Source: Pisolithus tinctorius (lineage: Eukaryota > Basidiomycota > Agaricomycetes > Boletales > Pisolithaceae). Taken from it: a DNA stretch of 64,000 nt. Numbering within the stretch: the first letter of the stretch is position 1; every line of letters begins with the position of its first letter. The stretch spans positions 1,178,001-1,242,000 of the forward strand of contig JANFAH010000001.1 in NCBI GenBank assembly GCA_024663395.1, given 5' to 3'. The notes under the pieces were generated by a model. It did not search any database. It was not told the origin of the DNA and saw only the letters and a program-made list of their open reading frames with translations. Positions 1-41,950 of the stretch are shown here, piece by piece. Position numbers and translations under genes: made by a program.

Positions 1-1260
1 TCTAGGCCGCCCCACCTCCAAATAGGGGCTCGCGCTTGAACATCGTCCACACACGCATGTCTCTATATAGGAAGTGCAACGATACACGGCCAGAGGTACG
101 TCTCATCGCTTTTACCTCAGTGTGGATGCATACGTGACCGCTGCGTGCTCAAATTTGATCATCACCGTCCCGTGAGTTCTCATTGCTTTCCTCCCACTAT
201 GGATGATGCATTATGTGTAGTGTAGGTCTATGCCTCAAGCGCTATGGTTGCATCTCGAATGTACATCCAGTGCCAAGTGCTGAATGCCTGATGCGCAGGG
301 ATAAATTAAATCAATATGTAGGCCTATACAACAAATGCCATTTCGCCCTCTTCATGTACGTGCGCATCTGTTTAGCTCATCATTCGAGGTCGTTGATGGA
401 GATAGTTGCGAACTGATGCTGATATAGGGCATACCTCGTCCTCACCACCTCCATTTACACCATTCTTGGATTCCCACCTGCGTTGATTGTAACTGGATTC
501 ACGCTTGCCATACGTCCCTTCCCCCCACCTCCTGCCTCATACTTCCCTCCTCGTCAACACAACTATGTTCGTGTCCCTCTATCAGCTCTGGAATCCTCGC
601 TCACTTCTTCCCTTTCCCTTCATCACGACTTACGTTCTCTTCGTCGTTCTCTCCCCGGCCGCCGTTATCATGCTCACTTGGCACATGTGGGGGGTTGCCC
701 GTGGTGAAACCGTTGTTGAGGCACAAGACCATGAAGTGTATGCGAAAAGGGCTAAGGAGAGGAGCGATGTGCGTTCCGCTTCGTCACCTTGTGCATGGGC
801 CCCCACCGAGGAGGGCCGTGGCCCGAGAGCGTTTGTTTCTTTGTTTATCGTACATCGGAGTCCGGACACCGAGTTCGGAACCTAGATGGATAAGGTGAAT
901 ATTGGCACGGTGGCACATGTTCCACGTTTAGTCTCAACTCTCGAAAACGGCGTGGCACCTGACCGCTCTCTGACGCAACATTTCAATTGCATATCTGGTA
1001 CTTCCGGAGTCGCCGCCTCCGTACCAACAGACGCGAAAAATATTTGGTAATGTATTTTGAAGCCTATTAGATGGGCGAGGTTAACTTTGTTGCCATTGAA
1101 TGTGCCATTCGTTTCTGTATTTAGTTTCGACCCTCACATGACTGCTCTCCGTGACACAACAATTCGGTTGCGTATTCGGGTGCGGATGACTGTGAATGAA
1201 GGAGAACTAGTCGAACGGGATTAATCCGACTACGCTCTACCGGATGGACTGCAGCCAACG
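1..1260. other. Region without a recognised gene
   Basis: Only short open frames are seen here and none resembles a known family. The stretch at about 490-900 is pyrimidine-rich, with overlapping short frames on both strands and no intron-exon logic that I can support. I see no repeat shared with the rest of the window. Confidence 0.5.
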
Positions 1261-1268
1261 TATAAAAG
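1261..1268 (+). promoter_or_regulatory. TATA-like box
   Basis: A TATAAAAG sequence lies about 70 and 131 bases upstream of two ATG codons (1330 and 1392), followed by a CA-rich leader. This is a typical fungal TATA arrangement for the small reading frame downstream, but no transcription evidence is available. Confidence 0.35.
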
Positions 1269-1391
1269 CAGCCCTATTGTTGCTCATTTACCTTCAGTGT
1301 ACTCAACCACTGCCAAGTCAACAACCAACATGTATGAGCATCTCTCGACGAATTTTCTGTTTGGGGTCTGATAATCCTCCTCTTCCCTAGC

Positions 1392-1597
1392 ATGGCTAGT
1401 CTCTACGTTGTCCTCTTATGCTATGCCGGGAATCTCTACGTGGCTGTTTTCACTACCCAAGTCGCCAACGATGACCCCATCAAGTATCTAGAGGGACTTC
1501 CGCAGTGCTAACCGGTGATTGCTATGAACTGGGCAACGAGACTGCCGTCGAAGATTGCTTCATCAAGGTCGGTCAGTTGGGCGGAACTGTGTACTGA
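1392..1597 (+). CDS. Possible small protein gene, unrecognised, frame-broken
   Basis: A 39-codon frame starts at 1392 with a hydrophobic N-terminus (MASLYVVLLCYAG) that could be a signal peptide or membrane anchor, and stops at 1509. One base out of register, an open frame continues to a TGA at 1595 and contains paired cysteines (GDCYELGNETAVEDCF). A GT...AG pair (GTATGAGC near 1331 to CCTAG at 1390) could remove a leader intron just upstream. Either a small intron joins the two frames or a one-base frameshift has broken the gene. The TATA-like box 131 bases upstream and the compact cysteine-bearing product would suit a small secreted protein, but I recognise no family and assign no function. 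Confidence 0.25.
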
Positions 1598-1849
1598 TGT
1601 GCTCCACTTGATGGGCACACCTAAACAGAAAGTGTATGCTGACATTCTGTGATGAACCATGGGTATAGCTGATGAAGGGTTCTTTGATCAGTAGAGGCTC
1701 ATCGAAGTCACTTAGCCAACTTGGATTCCGGGAAGTATGTGTTCTCAGGCTCTGTCTTAGGGATTTTGTTTTTTTACATAAAAAAGCAAGAAGAAAGAAA
1801 GAAAAGAAACAGAATTTTGTTTCTTGATTCCATCGGACATAACCATCAG

Positions 1850-2200
1850 GCGTCAGGCCTCAGGTACGTCTTCCGCCTATGTATGTACTTGACCTCCTCA
1901 GCAGTAATTACTTCTACGGTGCAGGGCACTACTCATGAGAATTGGCCTGGAAGTCGCAGTCTTGCAGGTGTTTCGTTCAATCGCAAACACAGTGAAGTGA
2001 AGTTAAAGGATATGACGGTAACACAACATCTTGCGTTTCCGTTGTTCTTCGTGCACCCGCTATACTTACCCATTCGTATTCGTGGATGTAATGGCGGGGT
2101 GTGGGGTGGTACATCTGAGTCTATCGGGGAGGGGATGAAGATGGAGACACGACTGTGAGCCCGTCAGAGAATGAAATTGCCTTGCCAAGGTTAAATCGGA
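1850..2200. repeat. Dispersed repeat X, copy 1
   Basis: This stretch shares the core 'ggatatgacgg' and its surroundings (a 'gcactactcatgagaattggcctggaag' type lead and an 'ttcttcgtgcacc...cttaccca' tail) with 6840-7000/14353-14480, 41640-41900, 46930-47180 and 55690-55840. The copies differ by many substitutions. No coding function is evident. This copy matches the insertion site of the 7005-14348 transposon in its unoccupied form. Confidence 0.6.
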
Positions 2201-2821
2201 TCCTATTTACCTACTGCGAGCTTATGTTTGCAGTCTTAGAGTACTTGGTCTGCTGCAGACCAAGCAGGGACAACCCTACATATTGATCCCTGCCTTTCTT
2301 TCGCAACCCTTCAATTGGCTAAGTCCTGTGATAACGAATATAAACAGAAGTTCCTGTGGATCCGCCCCGTGCAATCAAATGCGTAAAACCCGACGATACC
2401 TCCGTCACCAGTGGGTCTGGCGAAGGCAGAGGGTCCGCGCAGGTAGAGCTTTGGGACGTCGAAGGGTCGTGCAGGGGGTACATGTGAAGTCGGGACTCGA
2501 ATCAGCAAAGAGAATGGAGGATGGAATTTGTAGACTTCTCGAACCAGCGGGATGTAGATGGGATGCTTCGTTTCATCCCAAATCATCCCTTGTCCGACTC
2601 GGGCGCAACTTGCAAGTAGCCTGGGACAATGAAGAGCGCTACCAGTGGGGCATGAACTGAACGTTTATTCCTAGAGGGCCCTGGCGAAAACAATGGCACT
2701 AGGCATCAATTTCATGAAGCCATGGGACTGAAAGCCATGGCTATTAAGAGCGGGAATATCATTCAAGCGGTATCAGAAAAGGGAATGACGAGCCCATAGG
2801 AAGAACAGAATATCCGACACG

Positions 2822-4130
2822 TCAAGCATCATTCCACAGACCTGGTTTAGCAAGTGTTTCAAGGGATACAGCCCCGGCATCACTGCCCTCTCTTCCCGCC
2901 ACTTGCTTTGGAAACGTGCCGAAATCACCTAGTTTTGTTTCCGTAGTCTCAATTACAGCACCATCGCTGTGAGGGTATCGCACTGTGTCCCTTTCCAAAT
3001 CGACAGTGATTATGGATGTGAGCTCTGGTGGAGTAGGGGTCGTAGTTTCTTCAGGGCTGATGCGGAGAAAAAAAGCGACAAGCACGCTGAAGTTTGCCAC
3101 AATCAAACTAATTGATGACTGGTGAAACAAACGATTGAGTCTGCACTGTACCGGAGTGGCTAACAGAGCTCAGAATCATACCTCAACTATAGCAGTCAAG
3201 CCTTCTTTCAATCCACCATCAGAAAGTACATAGTATGCGTGGGTAAGGCTGACGACAGTGGTTATACCAGACGTCGAAAAAACAGACATAAGTCGGATCT
3301 TTTGAGCCTTGTTGAGTCTGATTTTGTAAATCAGATGGAATGGTGCTAGTATTAAAACCGTGTCGCCGAGCACGTCGGCTGGATGGAGCAAGTTAAGCAG
3401 ACCATTCCGTTCGTGCTCTACACAGCGGGCTCACTGATTATTTGCGTAATGGCAGGGTTCCTACCTAGATCGCACTGAGGGCGTGGTTGCATTTTCCAAC
3501 TACTTTGGGCTGCACAAGTCCAAAAGATTTGGGCGCCAAGGATCATCCATGCAACCATAAATGCAATGGCGGTGCATACCAGCCATCTCCTTAGTGGGCC
3601 AGGGAAAGTCATTCGCACGACCGTGAATAACATCGAGATCCTGGACGACCTAAAAACATTCTGAGATTGCCCGTGACCGGAGATACAAGATCGTTATCTC
3701 ACCAAACAACTGCATAGAAGATCTGTGAGACTCTAAAATATTTTTGAGCATGCTACAACGCTTGTTTATTAAAAGAATGCACGTATAATACAATATCACT
3801 CTTGTATCTTGAGGAAATCGAGCTAGCGTTGTACAGAGTTAGTCAACTAGGTGGGCTCTGGCACAAAACACGTCGTCCTCACCGTAGTCATACAAATACA
3901 GCCAATCTACCACCAAATGACTGATATTAAATCCCATGGCAAGCACTGCCCATGCGTCGTCTAGCCAGAGACGGCCTTGCCTCACCCGCATGGACAAACG
4001 GAATGAAGTAGCCACTGTCGCAGTGATGGACAAGACCGTACCGACAACTTCAGGTTCGTCAGTGACATCCTAAATAGTTCTCAATTTTGCTACCTTCGAT
4101 TTGTAGAATTGTTAGTTCAGAAGACGACAT
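2822..4130 (-). pseudogene. Fungal rhodopsin-like (PTH11-type) integral membrane protein, copy L1, probably damaged
   Basis: This is a multi-exon gene for a seven-helix membrane protein of the fungal rhodopsin-domain type. Reading from 4130, the exons encode a short N-terminus, then a helix-rich exon with the hallmark RLWLDDAWAVLAM (about 3839-4033), a 20-base micro-exon IFYAVVW (about 3690), SSRISMLFTVVRMTFP onward (about 3447-3650), TDVLGDTVLILAPFHLIYK (about 3190-3376), and SSISLIVANFSVLVAF to the end at 2822. Apparent stops near 3175 lie inside a GTATGA...CACCAG intron and are not lesions. The exon at 3839 however runs into TAA four bases before the donor used by its paralog at 15231-16561, so this copy is probably broken or spliced differently. 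Ligand and function are unknown; related fungal proteins are thought to be surface receptors. Confidence 0.5.
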
Positions 4131-6420
4131 GTCGACTTGGGAAGCGGGGGGAGGCTGAGAATACCATATATCTTTATTTCTGATGCTTTTCTTTGTACCA
4201 AGGATCACTTAAGGTTCCAACAATGTCGGCAACCTCAACGTTGCCCATGCTGTGCGTTATTAGTCATAGTTCAACGTTCATTCCCTGTGATCAGAGTCAA
4301 TCACGAAGGAAAATTGATGCAATGGAAGTCATACTTACTTCCCGTGGCATATTTCAAGTGCCACCAGCCACCAGAGAAATTGGAAGCTCCTCAATGCATT
4401 GAGATTTCGGGTGATACTATAAGTTCAGTGTTCCGCCATTGAGGTGGTCCGAGCAGCTTGGGAGTCGATTACATAATACGCATAACGTTACTCTGAAGAC
4501 CCATCAAATATTCGAGCAGTACCCTGTGTGCCTGATTGTTGTCAACCAGCTGTGCGATGCTGGCTGGCACCCGCAACAACGCGCAGTTTCTGTATCCGTC
4601 ATAGTACGACAGCATCTTTGTCACACAGGGAGCATACCACGGGCTTGGAACGGATGAAGCTGTTGGGATTTGTTCCTTGGATCGGACGCCGAACGTATTA
4701 CAGTAAAAGGTGGTAGTGAGTGCAGCTACTCCCAAATCAACGGCAAATTCTTATCCAAACCTCCAAGTACACAAAATCACTGCTAGACAATCGTCGGACT
4801 CACCATCCGCAGCTCTTAAACAGTGCGTTTGAAGCGTTGGCGGAACTCGTGCTAGTGCATTGAGTACTCATGTGGGAAGTATGATTTTTTTTAGTGCGTA
4901 CATTTAACACGACTGGCCTCGTGTCCTTACAGGCTATTACATACGTACCTACCACCGCAGCCGATGCACGGACAATGGGTTGACGTGCACAGCGCTCGCA
5001 TACGGCCATGTAGGTGGTGAGCATATATTTTCTCGCATGCTGCGTTCCTTGATGGCCCCTTGTTCGTACCCAGTACTTCCGCCATTTCCAGTTACCACGA
5101 CACAGGTATTGCCAGCAAATACTGATAGGACACATAAGATATGGCCCGAATTCTTTCTCAGGCGACGCCATTATTGAATGTTGGTCCAAGGAGTGCACAG
5201 TAGCCACTATGCTCCTTCTGTGGCTGCCCTTTACCTGCCGCAGGTGCACCCCCTCCACAGCTGTACGCACACACCACTTATATCTTGTCCATCCGACCAA
5301 ATTCGGATCACATCAATACTGTTGTTCAGACCGTCTATTCGACTATCACCTCGCACACACAATATGCCATCAAGTTCCTCCGGCCGAAGTACGTCTCACC
5401 GTGACAATACTAGAGCTATATAATGGATATTCGTTCGCAGGTGCATCGGGACCTTAGCGTATTCTTCGTTTGCACAGGATCCTGCCACGGACCTCAAAGA
5501 GTACGTTGCCCCGGCCGAGCAACAACTATTGGAGAAGTTGTATTTCGCACAGCTGAACATTGAAGATACTTGGAACTAACGCATCCTCCTGACACCCGGC
5601 GCAGCTGACTTCCCAGTTGGTCAAAATCCAGGTTGTGCGACACATACGCATTACACATATCCAAGCTGTCCAGCATGGTGGCATCTAATTAATGGGCCCA
5701 AGATCCAACACGTTCCGTGTTCCTCTCAAATCGCTTTAACATATCTATGGAGTAAGCGACACCAAGTGGCGACTTCGATCGAAATGGTTCCTCCAGCAAC
5801 GGCTGTAACAAGGCAAGTTTATCGAGGTGGGTGGTATAAGAGGCATGGTCAGTCTCCCCATGTACATAGCCGATGGAATGCAGGCTACACGTGCTAACAT
5901 GCATTGAAATCCAAATGATCATGCACCAAGTCTCGTCTTTGCGGGTCGAAGTGAGCGTCCAAAGGTGGTGGCTGACCCCGAAGGCACCTCCGACCTCTGC
6001 CCAGCCGCCCATATAAACTCTGCACGCCAGTAGTCCACTCTGCCCGCCCACCTTCCTCTTCATCATTATCGACATACTATGCACGTACACACCCTCCGAC
6101 CCTACTCAACATCACGATTGATGGGCGACGTCGAATACCGATTCTTCATGTGCGAATAACGACAACGAACCTCATGTACTCGCCGCAGAACGCGCTGGCC
6201 CTTTCGAACAGGAGAAGCACAGCAGACGGGGGGTTGTGCGGAACAATCCTTGGTCTAGTTGAGACTCGTCGGATGGTTACACAGACGTGCTCTGCTGATC
6301 ATCAGAATCTGCGACTTGAGTAGCTATCGCAGCACGGCATTTCAATACCTCATGGGATATGTAGGAATGTCAGCGATTTCATCGATGCTGTTCCACAACC
6401 GAAAGAGTACGTACGTTGGG
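4131..6420. other. Duplicated spacer without a recognised gene
   Basis: Segments of this stretch are diverged copies of sequence at 16600-18400. An example is 4610-4700 against 17050-17160, both carrying a 'cataccatggg/cataccacggg...gaatgaggctgttgg' type core. The part at 5230-5400 is a copy of spacer repeat S, and 5990-6110 contains a TATA-like 'ccatataaactctgcacgcc' start of spacer repeat T. The short open frames on either strand have no coding signature that I can defend. Confidence 0.5.
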
Positions 6421-6469
6421 CCCAAGTTGCGCTAGTTTATCGTTCTCTCTTGGGATGACATCTCACCTC

Positions 6470-7000
6470 TATGATATGCCACGCACCAACACCTTGCTTT
6501 GATTATCTATCGTTTCTAATTGATGCGATGTATCCGCTTTTGGCTTGGTATCGTTGGCGAAGACAACACTAAGTCGGCCTCTCGCTCGACACCCAGCAGC
6601 AAAGTGAATTGTGAAACGCTCCATCCTCTTCTCGCAAAGCATATGGACAACCATTTGAAATCGCTGCAGCTTACTCTTTGTCCATCGTGGCTTTTTCCAC
6701 TGTTTCTCTCATCATCTAGTCAGTTGATAGGGTACAAATTCATTATCTTCCACTGCGCACGCGATCGCATCGAGGCATGGATTACTTACGGAGCTTGTAG
6801 GACACCAGAAGAGTGTTTGCAGATGCTACGTAGTTGGATGAGTCGGGAGCTAATATCCATGACTATGGCGCAGGCCACTACTCACGGAGAATCGGCCTGG
6901 AAGCCATCATCTTGACAGTGCTTCATTCGAGCGCGAACACGGCGGGGTTAAAGGATATGACGGTAGCACGACATTCTGTGATTCCACCATTCTTTATGTA
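6470..7000. repeat. Dispersed repeat X, copy 2, left part
   Basis: This is homologous to 41150-41900, 46530-47180 and 55200-55840. It is interrupted after the CCTG at 7001-7004 by the transposon 7005-14348 and resumes at 14353. Confidence 0.6.
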
Positions 7001-7004
7001 CCTG
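7001..7004. repeat. Target site duplication CCTG (left)
   Basis: CCTG precedes the left terminal inverted repeat and recurs directly after the right one at 14349-14352. The unoccupied paralogous site near 41812 reads GCACCTGTTGTTACTTACCC, a single CCTG in matching flanks. Confidence 0.7.
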
Positions 7005-7032
7005 TTATGGAAAGCCAGACGGTCACGCTCAG
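7005..7032 (+). repeat. Left terminal inverted repeat
   Basis: The 28 bases begin TTATGGAAAGCC and end GGTCACGCTCAG. They match the right end with one difference (A against G at position 13). Confidence 0.85.
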
Positions 7033-7190
7033 GTACATAGTACGAGATGTGCCGTACACCTACTGTATTTGGTAGTCGGCCACCTTGGGACCCGGGACAG
7101 CCCCAGAAAAATACACGCGGGTGTTTATAGGTATTTATGCAGACTCTGCCAAGGTTGAGTCCAAGTAATGACATTCTAGTTACCGTAGTA

Positions 7191-8399
7191 CTACATATGT
7201 ATCAAGTACCACAGGTACTCGCCTTCTACTAATACCATGCCTTGCTGTGAGAGTGTCAGTGCAAAAGTGTGCTCGGAATCGCTGCTATTCAGGGCATCAA
7301 TGATCATATCAATAGCAGAATGCGTATATCCATGCACTGCAAGGTATCGGGTGGCATGGGCACCGAGCGTGTGGATGCGACGGTGCATCTGTGCGGGTGG
7401 AATGGAGTAGAAATACTGAGTTTGTGCGATGCCACACAGAGTCCGTGTGTGAGAATAGATGATTGGGGAGTGCATGTCTTGATCCCAGCCCACAATCTGC
7501 TGAGTTGTTGTCGAGCTGGCTATTTAAAGTGTTAATAACAATGTAGGTAGCTGGAGTAATGTCATACATACCAGGCATGGAGGCAGGCAACGGTGTTGCG
7601 CTCAATTGTGATGCTTGCACAGCAGGCCTTGATGTCACAGTACGCGGTGCTGTCGAGCTGGCTATTTAAAGTGTTAATAACAATGTAGGTAGCTGGAGTA
7701 ATGTCATACGTACCAGACACAGAGGCAGGCAACAGTGTTGCACTCAGTTGTGATGCTTGCACAGCAGGCCTCGATGTCATAGTACATGGCTCAGGCTTCG
7801 GTGGGCCTGGCGGCTGCCTCGGCGCTGGTGGGTGGCTTGGATTGGGCTGTGCACTGGGACTATCATGAAGCTGGACGCTTGCCAATCTGTCCATGAGACT
7901 CCCAACGCTCATAGTATTACTAGAGCAGCCTGTGAGCAATGATTAGTTGATTCATGATAGTAGAACAGTTCTAGACAAATGTTGCTTGCCAGGTAGTGAC
8001 GGCAGAGGGCTGCGACTCGCACTTGTAGCTAACATTGCTGGCATGCGATCATCGATACCTTTGACTATCAAATAAGCCAAAGCTTCCCAGAACGTGTGTG
8101 ACTCTCTCCATTTGGGATAAGCAAACAATTGTTCTGAGGTCGTCACACTATCTCTAGGATGCTAGAACTTGAGACAACCACTACACAAACATAAGTCATG
8201 CCAATAACCTTGTGCGATGAATACCAGCGGGTGCACCCACAACTATGGCATAAAATGAACCATCGGGAAGTAGGTTTCGTATGGCAGTCGAGTTGCCGAA
8301 TGCTTCAAGCAATTGTGTAGGGCTTGGGTTTGACTGTGTCGCAGTTACGGTGTCTAACACATGCTGCAATGTTGATTGGACATGCTTGGCCTCATTCAT
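7191..8399 (-). CDS. Protein with RNase H1 N-terminal-like (viroplasmin-type) domain, transposon-borne
   Basis: Five exons (8209-8399, 7990-8153, 7714-7929, 7572-7661, 7191-7519) join in frame to about 329 residues. Around residues 48-100 the sequence FYAIVVGAPAGIHRTRDS...YPKWRESHTFWEALAYLI matches the pattern of the small RNase H1 N-terminal/caulimovirus viroplasmin-like domain, which binds RNA-DNA hybrids or double-stranded RNA. An intron cuts this domain between GIHRT and RDS. A proline-rich linker follows (about 130-160). The unfamiliar C-terminal domain (from about 220) begins near VGWDQDMHSPIIYS. No RNase H catalytic core is visible. The second donor is GC (CTG/GCAAGC). Exon 4 is a tandem duplicate of the end of exon 3, carrying SRPAVQASQLSA twice. 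The gene lies just inside the left end of the transposon, downstream of the kinase gene; its role there is unknown. Confidence 0.55.
7511..7790 (-). repeat. 141 bp tandem duplication of an exon plus intron
   Basis: Two copies, 7511-7651 and 7652-about 7790, each hold the acceptor-proximal intron sequence and the exon coding SRPAVQASQLSA. The few differences are spread over both parts. The duplication keeps frame and splice sites, so it adds a repeated peptide to the protein. Confidence 0.8.
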
Positions 8400-8678
8400 C
8401 GAGAAACACTGTACAGCTATTGGTAGGGGGGGTGCAGATCACCCACATGGAATGTAGGGGCTAGAAGTTTAATAAGTGTAGAGTAGCATGTATATATATC
8501 TTCATGTGATGCACCAACTTCGGTGTATGCCCGGGTTTCTACCACCAACCACAACCCAGCAGGGTTCCATAAAGTGAGGGCTCGGGATAGGATATGGGAA
8601 CCAATGTCATTGAAATCTACTAGTTTATAGCCTACACGATCCAGTCGTTACATGCAATGGAAAAGGAAAAGGCACTAC

Positions 8679-11600
8679 CTAGTCATCGTCGCCTTGAGTC
8701 TCCAAAGTGGCACCGGGCACCTTCTCTCGAGAACCAGTGGTGTTGATCCTGAACGGCTGCAACTGAAACCCACGCCACTGGCAAAATGAGTTACACATGT
8801 GTTCTGTCTCAAAATGTTCCACTCCAATCTCCAAGTTTCCCTCGCCAAATAAGTCTCTACCCTTTCCCACAGAGCTAGGCAACAGTTAGACACATTGAGG
8901 TAACAATACAGATGTGCAATGCATGGATGTGTTAAGATCTGAGGGTCAGTGAGCAGTGTTTGACTCCCTGCGTAATAGAATTAATATCAAAGCCATGCCA
9001 CATGTCACAAATGAATGCATACCTTGATAGTCAGCTATGTAAACAAGCCCCTTTGTCTTGATGTATTGCACATGTTGAGTAAAGCAGAGAAACTCCGCGA
9101 TATCATACCCTTCCTCATCCGGATCGAGAAGTGGAACGCAATCGCAATTATGAACGAATTTTGTGAAGTCACCGTTGCATTCAATTTTCTCCTCCAAAAG
9201 GTAAGCACCGGTCATTCGGGTCGAGCTTCTTGATAAGCTTGCCGAAATGCTTGTGGACTCCGGAGCCTGGGTATACGCAAGGGCAAGTCCAGCATCCACA
9301 AAACGGAGGCGAGGGATCGGAAATGGTGGTGGAGTTGGGGAAGCTGCAATAGCATGGTCGATGAATTCGTAGGTCATCTTCATGAGTGATTGGGACCAGT
9401 AGAGAACATTGGCTTCCCGAAAAAGCTTCTCGAGTTCCTGCTGAAGGACGTAGCGGCCAATTTGGATTGTGGACTTGTCCTTCAGGTTGCCATCACCAGT
9501 ACTGTGGTAAGGTCGCTTCATGACGACATCGTGACGAGGGAGTGATCCAAGGCCAGTGGGTGCTGGTGGGGTAAGAATGAGCTGCACTGCATAAGCCGTC
9601 TTAAACGCACCAACTCCCAGGAGAGATTCCATCGAAGTATCGAATATCAGTTGGCCAGGATGCGATGTGCGTGGGTTGATTTGGAATGAATGCTTGTTGG
9701 AATTCTCTAAGATATCCTCCAAAGGCAGTGTAGGTATTGGATAAAAAACAATGGATTCGAGTTTCATTTTCAGGACTGTGACCAATCGTTAATTACATGC
9801 AGAAGTGGCAGGCCACAAAGACAGCACATACCTTTCTTGACATCCACGTCTGCAGCACCACCACATGCAAGCGCTTCAATCACTTTGTTGTGATCGGGGG
9901 AGGGTACCGGGGGGTGTACAACCTTCTTCCTAGGAGGGGATATGGTAATAACACTTGACACACTAATGGATGCTTGGTAGTTGCGCTTGCTTGGGGTGCA
10001 TTGGTTGGTCGTTGTCGGGGAAGGTGATGGCTGATGACGAATGAGACAAAGTACTTCAAAAAATGGTGATCACATACATTATCACGTTTTTCACTGTCAA
10101 CAAACAACTGGTTACCACTAGACGCCTGTGACTGAGACTGTGCAGGAAAGATTAGTCAGCCACTAGGTATCATCAAGGTAAAGATGACAGCGACTTACTT
10201 TGGCCTCAGCGATGTGGACATCATGAGATATGGGCTGTTCCACTACACTGCTGAATGAATCGACAAGGTGAGCCTGAGTGCTGGGCAAATCGACGACTGG
10301 TTGATGAGGCTTGGTGGCATAGTCCGTTGACACAGTCTCAATGAAGTTTTCGTAATCCTTCCATTGCACGGCAGGAACGACAACATAAAGAGAAAACTGC
10401 TTTGACTTGAAGACCAATGACTTCGCATTTTTACGAGTGCCTGGCTGAATGCATTCTCCATAGAAATACAGACAGTTGCGATCTGGATGGTCCAGCAAAT
10501 TCACCCATGACACGTCGCGGACAATGAATTCATCATATTTCCATTGGAACCCTGGACAGAACGCATGAATCTTGGGAACAATCATGGTAAGTGCAATGGA
10601 CACCAGCTCAGGAGCAGTGATGCGGGCATCGATATCCTTTTTTCCCTCACAAATACTCTGATGAATGTCAATGCATTAGTTCTTGCATTGTACAAAGAAG
10701 CGATAACTTACACCAAAGGGGGTGCCATGGAGGCGGCTTCTCCTAGAACCACCCTCATATAAGGCTGAGATATCTAGCGTAATTGTCTCTGCAGGTGGGG
10801 TACAGTATGCAAGGTGTGCCCATCATTCACGCTCGGATCCATAGAGCGCATGGTTGGGAGTATAGCCACATGGTACCGCCACTACATTCCAAGGAGGTTC
10901 GGAGTGCATGGGGGGCCTGGAGTCCTGAAAATTCCTCCAGGATGACGGAACGTGAACATCAGGTCCTGTTTGCTTCTGGGCCGCATTTCCCGCTGGAGGG
11001 AGAGCAATCACTTGCGGTGGGTTAATGGTAGCTTTGATCCATTAGTTCATGATGACCCTTAGTGGATCAGAAATTACACTCACCGCCACATTGTGCAGCG
11101 TTCATGGCCTGCTGTATTACTTTTGGATCAGGGAGATGGGCAGTAATGACAGGTTGGGGGTTAGAAGCCACATGGCCTTGAATGCCATCCGGTGCCATAG
11201 GCATATCTGGAAGTTCTTATCAGCATCAGGAAGTATAAATCAGGTATGGCCATACCTATGGCTTGCACGGACGCTCGCACAGTCGTGGTTGGCTTCTTGC
11301 TGTACCAATCATAGCACAACTTACATACATAATGGCCAGACTTGGATGGGTTGGCGGTAGAAACGTAGAAGTAAGGAGCCCCTTTGGGAATGAATGTGCT
11401 GCATGCTGATCGTTGACAGATCATATCGTTTTCAGCGACATCATCTGTAAACTGAGACACAAGCTCGATATTTAGTCTCGTCATAGTATCGAGAATCAAG
11501 TAGCATTTGAGGATGGTGGGGAATTGGTGTAGTACATTGATCCAAGGTCTGCTTAAATAGTGGCCAGATTGTGGAAAGTGAAGTGGTGAGTCTACAGCTG

Positions 11601-11715
11601 GTGGGTCGCACCAAAAAACGCCCCATCTCAGATCCCAGTCTATCTGTGGTGGATAGGTGCAAGTCCGCGGGCAAAACTGAATCATTGGTAGTTGGAAATC
11701 GTGTTTAGATGACAT
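8679..11715 (-). CDS. Alpha-type protein kinase (MHCK/EF2K family), transposon-borne
   Basis: Ten exons (11256-11715, 11084-11206, 10831-11010, 10712-10788, 10199-10657, 10078-10137, 9832-10030, 9023-9775, 8910-8967, 8679-8874) join in frame with GT-AG introns to 854 residues. The catalytic domain lies at about 565-835. It has the nucleotide-loop region GVGAFKTAYA, the lysine in VVMKRPY, the GAYLLEEKI segment, then FTQHVQYIKTKGLVYIADYQG, LLTDPQIL split by an intron, and the zinc-binding tail FGEGN...HMCNSFCQW. These are hallmarks of atypical alpha-kinases, which phosphorylate serine or threonine. The N-terminal 150 residues hold a cysteine cluster (MICQRSACSTF...YVCKLCYDWY) that may bind zinc. 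A basic, proline-rich linker precedes the kinase. No stop or frameshift was found, so this may be the one intact gene of the element. It diverges from the integrase gene across about 500 bases. Confidence 0.85.
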
Positions 11716-11960
11716 GACTGAAATGAGGTATCAGAGAATAACCATGGGTCATCAGGATGGTACACTACCGAGTGTCTGATGAAGGCCCGGATCACCCAAG
11801 AAAGAAAACTCGAGGTCAGTGCTGCAAAAACGAATCAATGGCAGCCGGAAATCATGTTCAAAAGACATGAACGAGGCGATGTATCAGGGGCAGTCAAAGG
11901 GGTGAACAAGATGTTAAGTTCCGAGTATCTGAAGAAGGCATCGATGAGGATACTTCAGGA
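11690..11960. repeat. Diverged tandem duplication around the kinase start
   Basis: Sequence at about 11685-11790 (TTGGAAATC.TGTTTA.ATGACATGA... GAGTGTCTGATGAAGG) recurs at about 11840-11945 (CCGGAAATCATGTTCAAAAGACATGAACGAGG... GAGTATCTGAAGAAGG). The second copy lies in the divergent promoter region and keeps a 63-codon open frame on the plus strand (11779-11970), which I do not regard as a gene. Confidence 0.5.
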
Positions 11961-12216
11961 AAGCGAATGAACATCAGTATCACCTTCAGTTACTCATCGC
12001 AAGGAGGAGCAGAAACGTTCGGAAAATGTTGTATCAAATTCTAGTTACGGGAAACCACAGCCGAGGCATGAGGCTTCAATTCAATTAGCGACCTCAAGGC
12101 TTCAAAGCTTAGGTGCAGAGGCAGACCTTGGGCATTTAACAACATACAAGAGTACGCTAGGTCATTGTGCGCCTCCCTGTGTGTTTTGCCCTTCAGCCTG
12201 AAGGCCTCAAGTCGAG

Positions 12217-14148
12217 TTGATGCCTAATCAACATAAACCATTGCATATGTCAGTTCACAATGTATTACACCACCGCCCTGATTTTGGAACAGCACCGATT
12301 GAGCAGATTACCCCCCATGTCATGTGGCTGTGGAAGGCCCACCGCACAGACAAGGAGATGCTGGAAGAAGTTCTCAAGCACATTGACACTGAGGAATATG
12401 GAATCGGGTATGCAGCTACGTTTTCCTCTGTTATCCATGTCCCATTAACCCTGATCTGAAATTACCAGCCTGACGAAATTCAAGGCCATTCGCAAAAGCT
12501 TAGGGTTGCACTGTACTCGCCAGCAGGGCCACACAACTGAATCGATCCATAGTGTTATGGTCCATCTGCACGAGATGTACCCCAAGGCTGGAGTGTGCGA
12601 AACAATAAGTTTATTGTTCCATGAGATGGACATGTCTGTATCTCGGTAAGTTCTGATCGACCATCCCATACATCAACTTACTCCGCTGCAGCAGCATTGT
12701 CCGTGAATACTTCACCACCTACGAGCCCGATCTTGTTCGACAGTGGAAGGCTCAGCATCTTCAATGGTGGCGATTCTGGGCTGCTGGTGTGAATGATATT
12801 TGGGCAATTGATCAGCACAATAAATGGCTTCGGTTTGGCTTAGCTCTCCACACAGGTATAGAGCCGTTTTCAGGAAGAATAATGTGGATGCGCATCTGGC
12901 ATTCAAATCGTAACCCTCAACTAATCCTAAGCTATTATCTCGATGTTGTTGATGAACTTGGTTGTAAGTAATTAACCCTAGGCATGCTGTGGGGATGCTC
13001 ATACCCACTGCTTCCTTAACAGACATTCCACTTGTTACACAGAGCAATCCAGGTACAGAAAACTTTGGGATCGCCAATGCCCAAACTATGCTGCGCCAGT
13101 GGCATGACCGTAGTTTGCTCGGTACATTGCAACACAGATGGATGCGAACAAAGAAGAATGTCATGCCCGAAATCACTTGGTCACAACTCCAGTGCCACTT
13201 CACACCTGGCTTCGAGTCTCTTCTGGATCGGGGTGTGCAACAAGGCTGGTACAATTGTGACAACACATTACAGTGGTAATTTGATCACTTTCTGAGGAGT
13301 ACCATACTGACTTGGGATTTTTGAATCTGTCAGGCTCATCTTTTATTGGGTGTTCATCCCCTGGCTTCAGTGCAAACTCGATGCATATAGGAACCGCGTG
13401 AATTACACTGCAAAGCGTCATGATTGAAACAAAGTGGGTAATTTACATTATGATGCACTTTTCAATCAACCACTAAACGATCTAAGGTATTGCCGCATGG
13501 TGTCCCTGAACTTATCCACAGTGCCACTGAAGATTATGGCGCGCTGGACTTCAAGGTATGGAATACAGATTTAGATACATGTGATGTGTCCTGACTTATG
13601 GATTACAGGTGATCGTTGACCGTGCTGCAATAGAGCATGTACACAAGGTGTATATCAATTCTGCTCATCCCATGTTTGATCTGGTATCCCCTGCATTTGG
13701 CGCCTTCCTCGAAAAGTGTTACACTATGTTGCAGCGTCCTCCCATTGGTCATGGCAACGCATGGACAGTATATCGTGAAATGTTGGCCCTCATTCAGCGA
13801 CAAGAAGAGGCACAGGCTCTCCATGAATCAATAATGGATGTTGAAATGCCTGCAGAGCACCTTCCCCTTATTGAAGGCTTGGAAGATCTCCCTTTCAATG
13901 AGACAGATGGAAACTACTACATGGGTGGTGTAGGTGGTGGCCTTGGACTATGTAAGTTGTCAATGAAATTTTTGTTAACTAGTGGCTAAGTACGAGCAGA
14001 GGAAGATCACATCCAGGTATTGGATAACCTTGATGACGAACCTGATGTTGAAGGTGGTGAGACAAGTGATGCTGGAGCTGGCGTTGTTATTTCAGCCTTT
14101 TCTGACGATGAAAGTGATGACGACGACCCATTCCTAGACAAGTGGTAG
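12217..14148 (+). pseudogene. DDE integrase core-like transposase gene, with one premature stop
   Basis: Eight exons (12217-12407, 12469-12645, 12692-12963, 13023-13275, 13334-13433, 13487-13555, 13609-13951, about 13991-14148) would give about 520 residues. The family is recognised by RQQGHT, AAGVNDIWAIDQHNKW, PFSGRIMWMRIW, LVTQSNPGTENFG, LQHRWMRTKKN, MPEITWSQL, FYWVFIPWLQ and LPHGVPELI, an integrase-like protein common in Agaricomycete genomes. The presumed catalytic triad is Asp (codon 12810), a second Asp in TQSD, and Glu (codon 13169). Here the second is Asn (AAT, 13046). An in-frame TGA at 13425-13427 replaces an expected arginine codon in KRRDRNKVLPHG-type sequence. The C-terminus is acidic. 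Both defects fit C-to-T change at CpG. Any movement of this copy would therefore need a transposase supplied from elsewhere. Confidence 0.7.
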
Positions 14149-14320
14149 ATACTATGTAGTACATCAGGCTCGTATCTACATTTTCGTGGTTGTTTTTCAT
14201 GATTCATTATAATATATACAAGGCTGTTAAATTGCATCTCGGGTAGGTTTGCGGTGTCTTGGGTCCCAAGGGGGTCGATTACCAAGTTTAGTATTTGCGG
14301 GCGCCTCGCCCACCACCTTT

Positions 14321-14348
14321 CTGAGCGTGACCGTCCGGCTTTCCATAA
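14321..14348 (-). repeat. Right terminal inverted repeat
   Basis: This is the inverted partner of 7005-7032. The CCTG at 14349-14352 follows directly. Confidence 0.85.
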
Positions 14349-14352
14349 CCTG

Positions 14353-15230
14353 TCGTAGTCACACAATCGTATTCATATTGGTAGATGCGATGGTGGGATG
14401 ATGGCATGGTAGGAGACGGAAATGGCCTTGGTTGAATCGGACTCTACTCACCTACTCCGATTGCATGTTACAGCTATAGAGACATCTATCGTGAAGCCCC
14501 GGCTAGGCAGGGCCAACGCCACAGATTGACCCGCGTCGTCCATTCACAATCATCCAGTCCAGTAATCACAAATATAAACAAGAGTTCCTAGAAGTCCGTC
14601 TCATGTGATCGGAGATGTAAAACCTGGTGACGCTTCCGCAACCAATGGGTACTGGCAAAGGCATTGGCACTGCGTGGGCAGTGCTTTGGGATGCCGAAGG
14701 GTCGTACGGGAGGAGCACGTGAAGTCGGAACTAGAATCAGTGGAGAACGGGGATGGAATTTACGGACTCTGAGAGCTGAAGAAAAAAACAGATCAAATGT
14801 TCCGTTTCATTTCAAATGTTTTCTTGTCTGACTCAGATGCATGTGAGTGACTTACGGCCAGCTTCCGAAGATAAATGACAATGAAGTCGAGGATAAGGCG
14901 AACGAAAGATAAAATTTGCAGATTTGTCGAACCGGCAAAATATAGGCAGGATGTTTCGCTTTGAATCTTTCCTGGTCCGACTCGGGTGGAAGTGAGCAAC
15001 CTACAACTAGCGTCGAGGGCAATAGAAGACGGAGAGCCCTACCGGTGGAGCACGCTTGTTTTGAGTGATAGGTCCATAACCAGAGGAAGGCAATGACCCT
15101 TGATATCGACTTCAGAATGTCAAGCCCATGTGGCCGAAGGGGGCTGGTCACGTAGGACCAGGAATATCGTTCAAGTAGTAACAGAAAAGAGAATGATAAG
15201 TACCATAGGGAAAACGTAGATGATGGTACA
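14353..15230. other. Right part of repeat X and L2 spacer
   Basis: The sequence resumes repeat X and then matches the stretch upstream of the L1 membrane-protein gene at 2150-2800. An example is the shared 'aatataaacaagagttcctag'/'aatataaacagaagttcctg'. No gene was recognised. A partly duplicated tract is present: 'gtttcgttt...cttgtctgactcagatg' near 14805 and again 'gtttcgcttt...ctggtccgactcggg' near 14955. Confidence 0.5.
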
Positions 15231-41150: not shown

Positions 41151-41950
41151 GGCGTGAGTTTATCATTATCTCTCTCTGGACGACATATCATGTCTGTGAT
41201 ACGCCATATACCAACGCTCTGCTTCGGTTCTCTAGCGCTTCTCCGTTGATGCGAACTGTGCACTTTGGGCTTACTGTCTCCAGAAAGACACCAGTAGGCT
41301 ATCCCAATCGCTGGCGATCTTTGTATTTCGCACAGTGTTTGTCCCCTGCAAGGCAACGTGAGCGTGATTGATGACACGCACCATACACAATTAAGTGGAT
41401 TCTCTGGACAATAGCCTCCGTGATACGGACGACCACCTGTGATCTCCAACGGCTTACTCCTCGTGCGTTGTCATGACTTTTCCCATCCTTGCTCTCATCG
41501 TTTAGTCCATTGATAGGGTGCCAGTCCCGTTTCCTCCCTCTGAAGACGCAACTTTTTCGGGTAAACGAGAGATTGATTAGGCGAACTTACCGCGCTTGTA
41601 GGACCAGAGGTGCGTTTTCTAGTGCCTGCGTAGCCGGTGGCACTGGGTAGGGAACTGATGGCTCTGACTACGGCGCAGGCCATTACTCGGGAACATTTCC
41701 ATGGAGGCCGTCATCGTGGCAGCGCTTCATTCGAGCGAGAAGATAGTGGAGATGGGGGATATGACGACAGCACAAGGCCCACCATCCTCCTGTCCTATTA
41801 TTCTTCGTGCACCTGTTGTTACTTACCCAATCATATTCATGTTCGAGGATACGATGATGGGGCGATGGAGACGCCACGTCTGAATCTGCTAGTAAAGGAA
41901 TAAGCCTGATGGAAATCGTGACCTTCTGATTCGGTAGAATCGGATTAGCC
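41150..41950. repeat. Dispersed repeat X, copy 3 (empty site reference)
   Basis: This is an uninterrupted copy of the sequence split by the 7005-14348 transposon. The target region reads GCACCTGTTGTTACTTACCC at about 41809-41828. Confidence 0.65.

Follow-up and report, generated by a model that had tools for sequence, protein, structure and literature searches.

An inactive IS3EU-type transposon copy in Pisolithus tinctorius that carries an alpha-kinase gene beside its DDE transposase gene

The window examined here comprises 64,000 nucleotides of contig JANFAH010000001.1 of Pisolithus tinctorius (assembly GCA_024663395.1, positions 1,178,001 to 1,242,000). It contains a whole but inactive DNA transposon of the IS3EU type at positions 7006..14347 (no strand assigned), which is flanked by the 6-bp target duplication ACCTGT (plus strand; left copy, 7000..7005; right copy, 14348..14353). 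The element has the termini TATGG..CCATA. Its terminal inverted repeats, located at 7006..7032 (plus strand) and 14321..14347 (minus strand), are identical at 26 of 27 positions, and weaker similarity extends to about 95 bp, reaching ~7099 on the left and starting from ~14255 on the right. The borders were set at 7006 and 14347 because the base preceding TATGG differs among copies. The first-pass annotation had reported inverted ends and a target duplication with an alpha-kinase gene and an integrase-like gene in between, all of which were seen. Its repeat of 28 bp (27 of 28 identical) and its 4-bp duplication CCTG were rejected, since the junctions of the copies give 27 and 6 bp, respectively.

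The delimitation of the element is based on comparison of its ends and duplications with those of other copies and on an empty paralogous site. This site lies outside the window, 62 kb away (C1:1246787-1247992); its matches to the two flanks (93% and 95%) overlap by a single ACCTGT. The regions near 2050, 41809, and 47090, taken earlier as empty sites within the window, were discarded because they match the left flank only (74-78%) and these matches end short of the junction. Reading frames of the empty-site region yielded no nameable product.

The alpha-kinase gene occupies positions 8679..11715 on the minus strand and was modelled in nine exons, the third of which contains one in-frame stop. 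The model relies on PF02816, a hand-built model, and comparison with other copies. PF02816 was recognized in the window exon 8946-9788 (E 4.7e-5) and in the kinase model of the C23 relative (E 1.9e-11); it scored above the cut-off in all eight kinase homologues scanned. The DDE transposase gene (12220..14148, plus strand) was delimited by PF24764, gene modelling, and comparison; its model comprises eight exons, with the start and one exon junction being uncertain. Two catalytic positions of this gene are replaced, and it also contains a stop. The PF24764 match in the window exon 12657-12971 (E 2.3e-5) is short of the family cut-off, while that in the transposase model of the C23 relative has an E-value of 8.4e-17. 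Residues D146, D205, and E295 are kept in at least 90% of 30 transposases. The IS481 model was matched by 12 of these 30 proteins and the IS3 model by two, all matches being weak (best E 5.8e-4). The best fold matches of the transposase were TnsB, MuA, and retroviral integrase, none of them below E 0.001, and the comparison of the transposase profile with solved structures gave no matches.

The third gene (7197..8570, minus strand) was located by tblastn with the C23 model and is interrupted by stops in the window copy. It includes a tandem duplication of 138 bp with 93% identity (7506..7785, no strand assigned), which is also present in the C18 and C6 copies. One exon of the third gene has 35 matches genome-wide, and the gene occurs within 8 kb at 20 of the 26 kinase-transposase pairs described below. 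The RNase H1-N label assigned to this gene in the first-pass annotation is one of weak resemblance, with PF01693 detected in two of 11 third-gene homologues (best E 0.0062) and in none of the window fragments or spliced third-gene models scanned. The third protein has a predicted structure of low confidence without fold matches. Eleven third-gene matches have no kinase partner and no duplicate contig; in the two of them that were inspected, C11 and C5, no ends with a 6-bp duplication and no kinase or transposase of the element's type were recognized.

Genome-wide, the end pattern with up to three mismatches occurs 29 times, versus zero for the reversed control. Both ends are available for 11 distinct insertions, and all of these display exact 6-bp duplications and TATGG..CCATA termini, although the search that yielded three of the insertions (C21, C18:1131, and C23:612) itself tolerated no more than one mismatch in the duplication. 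The terminal repeats of these three insertions are identical over ~140 bp or more. The copies C18 and C6, as well as four divergent elements, have both the kinase and the transposase between such ends. Other copies share these ends but are shorter and differ in their interior, as expected of non-autonomous derivatives. Relatives of ~3 kb were rejected as kinase carriers: DNA similarity of L009-L013 to the window element is limited to the ends, and no kinase or transposase was recognized among the reading frames of L009 (from 60 aa) and L012 (from 80 aa).

The nearest kinase at all 26 related transposase loci of the P. tinctorius genome is an alpha-kinase, encoded divergently on the opposite strand. 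This supports the earlier suggestion that the kinase and the integrase-like gene are parts of a single mobile element, and their divergent order is the same at each locus. The distance is within 8 kb in 22 of the 26 pairs, as compared to ~0.6% expected by chance; the other four pairs are 11.8-50.8 kb apart, which counts against the interpretation given below. When two genome searches were combined, 26 of 37 alpha-kinase places had a transposase partner, in line with the proposal that the kinase expansion is partly transposon-driven. Seven of 33 kinase loci are without such a partner. Two of these were examined: one keeps the left element end, and the other is an interrupted kinase with no such end. 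The outcome named in advance as contrary to the proposal, i.e. ends without the genes and genes without the ends, was not the general situation, given the C18, C6, and four divergent elements. Judging from these genomic positions, the kinase copies of P. tinctorius are largely transposon-borne, and much of the apparent growth of this kinase family is accounted for by transposon copies.

Kinase distances follow transposase distances across 18 elements (correlation 0.767; 0 of 5000 permutations). In other Boletales, homologues of the two genes share contigs and are near neighbours six times in a comparison of 67 kinase rows with 120 transposase rows. The homologue lists include transposases from Agaricales (for example, Mycena) and no kinase from this order. 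Two kinase pairs with dS near 0.9 have dN/dS values of 0.14 and 0.15; the corresponding values for the transposase exon in the same pairs are 0.10 and 0.17. In saturated pairs, kinase dN/dS ranges from 0.12 to 0.28, and the kinase is under constraint between lineages. Among recent copies inside the genome, it reaches 1.15, and several of these copies carry stops. The between-lineage constraint, the congruent distances, and the linkage in Boletales argue for the kinase being a long-kept gene of the element and not a recent cargo.

The window copy is dead, a feature absent from the first-pass annotation. Its kinase stop is common to the C6 copy, while the stops in the C18 and C10 copies are at other places; the replaced transposase glutamate is also present in C6. 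CpG sites are involved in 175 of the 230 differences between the window and C6 copies, versus 23 of 72 in the host flank. The pattern is less striking in comparison with C18, where CpG transitions make up 197 of 398 differences. The copies decay mainly via CpG transitions, as methylated DNA does. The stop and the glutamate replacement shared with C6 mean either that CpG sites were hit twice or that these copies moved by help in trans; the shared stop therefore weighs against the kinase being required in cis.

With high confidence, we assign the window element to the IS3EU superfamily as an inactive copy of a cut-and-paste transposon of P. tinctorius, because its ends, its 6-bp duplication, and, more weakly, the resemblance of its DDE transposase (PF24764) to those of IS481 and IS3 fit this eukaryotic group. 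The transposase would cut at the element ends and insert with a 6-bp stagger. The kinase would assist the element, share its line of descent with the transposase, and phosphorylate a host protein or an element protein so that transposition goes on. Such a putative service to the element fits both the linkage and the constraint. We consider an IS3EU element with a kinase helper, as a whole, the probable explanation, and the helper role taken by itself a reasonably likely one. Host silencing is our favoured target, since the copies decay in the manner of methylated DNA and since in rust relatives these two genes have a TET/JBP gene between them; an anti-silencing role of the kinase is, nevertheless, a tentative suggestion.

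The kinase could instead phosphorylate the transposase or the third protein and thereby control assembly or copy number. The constant divergent arrangement with the transposase, the congruent distances, and the recurrence of the third gene (20 of the 26 pairs) are all consistent with this, yet the kinase stop common to two copies speaks against a need for the kinase in cis, and help in trans would do; we regard this alternative as rather doubtful. It is unlikely that the kinase is a passenger benefiting the fungus, kept by host selection and merely spread by the transposon. Low between-lineage dN/dS would also be expected from host selection, and seven kinase loci have no transposase partner, but copies within the genome decay, with dN/dS up to 1.15 and stops in several of them, and the two unpartnered loci examined retain either an element end or an interrupted kinase. 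Finally, the seven unpartnered loci might be taken to mean that kinase and transposase are separate genes, brought close to each other by chance or by a repeat-rich setting, which is extremely improbable in view of the exact ends and duplications that enclose the divergently oriented genes (a contradiction at every locus with both ends), the empty site with one ACCTGT, the 22 of 26 pairs within 8 kb against 0.6% expected, and the adjoining kinase and transposase gene tags in other species.

Returning to the element helper, a DNA transposon whose protein kinase persists from lineage to lineage would, in our judgement, be an unusual carrier of a signalling enzyme. The element raises a direct question, namely whether the kinase alters transposition or silencing, and the pairing at 26 of 26 loci is a clear rule open to refutation by other genomes. 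Speculatively, the IS3EU elements of basidiomycetes may have had the alpha-kinase as a core gene since ancient times, and this kinase may disarm host silencing, with the rust TET gene and the mushroom third gene as lineage-specific partners; most alpha-kinase expansions in basidiomycetes would then be transposon copies and not growing host families.

Such expansions, involving the same family PF02816 and also in basidiomycetes, are known from rust fungi (PMC4469406, PMC5295586, PMC4150398). In the relevant parts of these reports, alpha-kinase figures as a family name, as an entry in a table, or as a protein subject to diversifying selection; the family is described as highly expanded in rusts (PMC4469406), and one alpha-kinase is among 46 proteins under diversifying selection (PMC4150398). 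If many rust alpha-kinase genes sit in transposons as they do here, the counts of expansion and selection (PMC4469406, PMC4150398) need rereading.

The IS3EU/GingerRoot superfamily is characterized by TA..TA ends, usually 6-bp duplications, and a transposase akin to those of IS3 and IS481 (PMC10045372). The ends and duplications of the window element are of this kind; passages of that article on this superfamily mention no kinase. Ginger1 and Ginger2 are likewise cut-and-paste elements with an integrase-like DDE transposase, but their duplications are of 4 bp, or 4-5 bp (PMC10045372), and identity with them was rejected on account of the 6-bp duplications. The pairing of transposase and kinase, regarded as undescribed in the first-pass annotation, is already stated in section 4.1 of PMC12730594 for TET-bearing IS3EU families, with the two genes oppositely oriented (Kojima, 2025). 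In the literature searched (subscription papers, preprints, and Repbase Reports aside), this single passage was the one place where a link between the kinase and a transposon was found; our searches turned up neither the mushroom form without TET nor the third gene, nor any account of the constancy and constraint. The TET-bearing elements of rust fungi have TAYGG..CCRTA ends and 6-bp duplications (Kojima, 2025; PMC12730594), and thus resemble the window element in end type, duplication length, and the opposite orientation of transposase and alpha-kinase. Their terminal repeats exceed 30 bp, as compared to ~140 bp or more in C21, C18:1131, and C23:612 and to 27 bp, followed by a stretch of weaker similarity, in the window element. 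Apart from the host, a mushroom here and a rust there, the difference lies in gene content: the rust elements carry the TET/JBP gene between transposase and kinase, whereas the window element has a gap of ~0.5 kb (11715 to 12220) with no gene modelled in it, and the elements of P. tinctorius possess a third gene, unrelated to TET/JBP, which lies beyond the kinase or, in one lineage, beyond the transposase.

The window is part of contig C1 of the 92.5-Mb genome of Pisolithus tinctorius. Comparison of ends with other copies places its IS3EU-type DNA transposon at window positions 7006–14347. The inverted ends and the target duplication described in the first-pass annotation were recovered, with different sizes: instead of a 28-bp repeat and a CCTG duplication, the terminal repeat is 27 bp long (26 identical) and the duplication comprises 6 bp (ACCTGT), because the base preceding TATGG differs between copies. 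The end pattern (up to 3 mismatches) gave 29 matches genome-wide; the reversed control gave 0. The insertion is documented by an unoccupied paralogous site located 62 kb downstream, beyond the window. Namely, the left flank corresponds to C1:1246787–1247393 (93%) and the right flank to C1:1247388–1247992 (95%); these matches overlap by exactly 6 bases, a single ACCTGT, and the C1 sequence is continuous across the junction. The empty sites proposed earlier within the window (near 41809, 2050, and 47090) proved to match the left flank alone, with similarity ending before the junction. This flank (6400–7005) belongs to a repeated, partly tandem C1 block with about 20 related stretches.

The element carries an alpha-kinase gene with nine modelled exons (11715–8679, minus strand) and a transposase gene with eight (12220–14148, plus strand); in the latter model, the start and one exon junction, at which a stop occurs, are uncertain. 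Stop-free models of 830 residues (kinase) and 500 residues (transposase) were obtained for a relative in contig C23 and matched the alpha-kinase model PF02816 (1.9e-11) and the integrase-like DDE transposase model PF24764 (8.4e-17), respectively. PF02816 was also matched by all eight scanned kinase homologues from Boletales, Calocera, and Trametes. Six homologues aligned with the C23 kinase share GN and DYQG motifs, the latter presumably catalytic, and all but one, a late-starting model, possess an N-terminal cysteine motif. Residues D146, D205, and E295 were kept in at least 90% of 30 transposases. Structure prediction for the transposase (mean pLDDT 75, pTM 0.64) gave a fold whose best matches include TnsB, MuA, and retroviral integrase, none below E 0.001. 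Further integrase-like lineages are abundant in this genome: PF24764 gave at least 134 matches (150 of 464 candidates scored), mostly outside the 26 transposase loci studied here.

These 26 loci were obtained with one transposase exon as query (27 matches; one at E 9e-4 was removed), and 33 kinase loci with one kinase exon (41 matches, merged by hand); both searches yield lower bounds. The union of kinase and integrase-like transposase in one element, as read initially from the window, is supported by these loci. At all 26 transposase loci, the closest kinase lies on the opposite strand in divergent orientation, and 22 pairs are less than 8 kb apart, most of them 2.6–3.3 kb (chance expectation within 8 kb, about 0.6%); the four wide pairs span 11.8, 15.0, 30.2, and 50.8 kb. 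The kinase is part of the element. Seven kinase loci lack a transposase partner. One of them, C167, resembles a duplicate of C10; of two others examined, C4:3097 retains a left end of the element; in C50, the kinase is interrupted and no left end is present. With four additional places revealed by the Pfam search, 26 of 37 alpha-kinase places have transposase partners. Alpha-kinase matches outside the transposon-type set were located at C25:753691, C36:467606, C22:348256, and C11:236993. Two of these loci (L079 and L080, 3.5 kb each) showed no match to this kinase, the transposase, or the repeat pair of the element; L080 has one end-like match with 3 mismatches.

The identity of the third gene as RNase H1-N (PF01693) is tentative. 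One exon query gave 35 genome matches. The gene occurs within 8 kb of 20 of the 26 pairs, on the side of the kinase in 17 and past the transposase in 3, and at 16 and 22 kb from two more; four pairs have none. Thirteen matches have no listed pair, including those in C167 and C35, which have a kinase on the same contig. Of the other 11 third-gene copies, the two inspected (L081, 3339–4448; L082, 2844–3847) had no kinase, transposase of this type, or clear ends nearby; a long reading frame near the L081 copy may resemble a KDZ transposase. The elements at C1:1838154, C23:354705, and C46:290668 form one lineage with the third gene beyond the transposase rather than beyond the kinase, i.e., a rearranged element.

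A near-complete copy of the window element was found in C18; those in C6 and C10 are interrupted by other DNA. Shorter derivatives share about 310 bp of the left end and about 250 bp of the right end. All 11 distinct insertions for which the two ends were identified have exact 6-bp duplications: ACCTGT (window), AGTCTG (C6), CAGAGA (C1:797), CCGGAT (C2:2436), CTTTTG (C11:227), TGGTTG (C2:101), GATTAT (C22), CATAAT (C1:1831), CAATCG (C21), GTCTTA (C18:1131), and TAATTG (C23:612). The last three came from a scan in which a duplication was required and no more than one mismatch in it was tolerated (offset controls, 0); it gave one extra pair each in C21 and C18:1131, within long repeats. Loci with a single recognisable end were left out (C18:506, C17, C181, C4:4032, C11:1148, C162, C4:3305, C17:1252, C44, and C159), as was C1:861, the same site as C1:797. 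The two derivatives concerned (C1:797134–800190 and C1:861669–864727) have identical flanks and duplication and are, therefore, probably a single insertion copied by segmental duplication. Five elements of 3.1–4.9 kb (L009, positions 502–3556, to L013) have the same ends and 6-bp duplications and a different interior, which in L009 is in part an inverted duplication. These shorter elements have the appearance of non-autonomous derivatives mobilised in trans.

The window copy itself is inactive: two catalytic residues of its transposase, the second aspartate and the glutamate, are replaced, and stops break both the transposase and kinase genes; the third gene has stops as well. Decay is also seen in other copies. 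The glutamate replacement and the kinase stop recur in C6, the aspartate replacement and one stop are present in C21, and the kinases of C18 and C10 contain stops at other positions. The window and C6 copies differ at 230 positions, 228 of which are transitions (2 transversions; 175 CpG transitions), as compared to 72 differences in the host flank (58 transitions, 23 CpG). The window and C18 copies differ by 368 transitions and 30 transversions, with 197 at CpG. The observed/expected CpG ratio rises from 0.60 for the window element to 0.80 for the window as a whole and 0.90–0.98 for three other elements. Such an excess of CpG transitions over the host flank is the mark that would be expected of DNA methylation, and deamination of DNA presumed to be methylated would explain the pattern.

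In two pairs with dS near 0.9, dN/dS was 0.14 and 0.15 for the kinase and 0.10 and 0.17 for the transposase exon. Pairs with saturated dS gave kinase values of 0.12, 0.14, 0.16, 0.16, and 0.28; one further pair was not computable. Among recent copies, kinase values of 0.22–1.15 and values as high as 2.27 for the short transposase exon are in line with decay after insertion. Kinase and transposase distances are correlated over 18 elements (r 0.767, 0 of 5000 permutations). The two trees agree in their main groups; for the 91-residue exon, deep nodes are weakly supported.

For other species, 67 kinase homologues were compared with 120 listed of 547 transposase homologues. Among the homologues listed, 15 putative contigs, equated by their length, were common to both. 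Two are contigs of this genome and one joins rows under different Pisolithus species names, leaving 12 from Pisolithus, Suillus, Chiua, Melanogaster, and Boletus. Gene tags are adjacent or two apart in six of them (two in Chiua virens; one each in Suillus fuscotomentosus, Suillus lakei, Melanogaster broomeanus, and Boletus reticuloceps); in the other six they are far apart and uninformative on distance. Agaricales, such as Mycena, are present among the listed transposases and absent from the listed kinases, a difference that may be genuine or an artefact of the word-based search.

For an element with established ends, duplications, past mobility, a constant gene pair, and constraint between lineages, we propose movement by cut-and-paste, with the kinase as a helper. 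Among its candidate targets, host silencing or regulation ranks first. Action on the element's own proteins ranks second, and the kinase as a mere passenger comes last.

No description of a TET-less mushroom form of this pairing was found in the literature searched, the scope of which did not extend to subscription papers, preprints, and Repbase Reports. IS3EU families have TA..TA ends and, in most cases, 6-bp duplications, according to PMC10045372. The pairing of transposase and alpha-kinase is already in print: as stated by Kojima (2025; PMC12730594), all TET-bearing IS3EU families carry the TET gene between oppositely oriented transposase and alpha-kinase genes. That paper also describes IS3EU families of rusts with TAYGG..CCRTA ends and 6-bp duplications.
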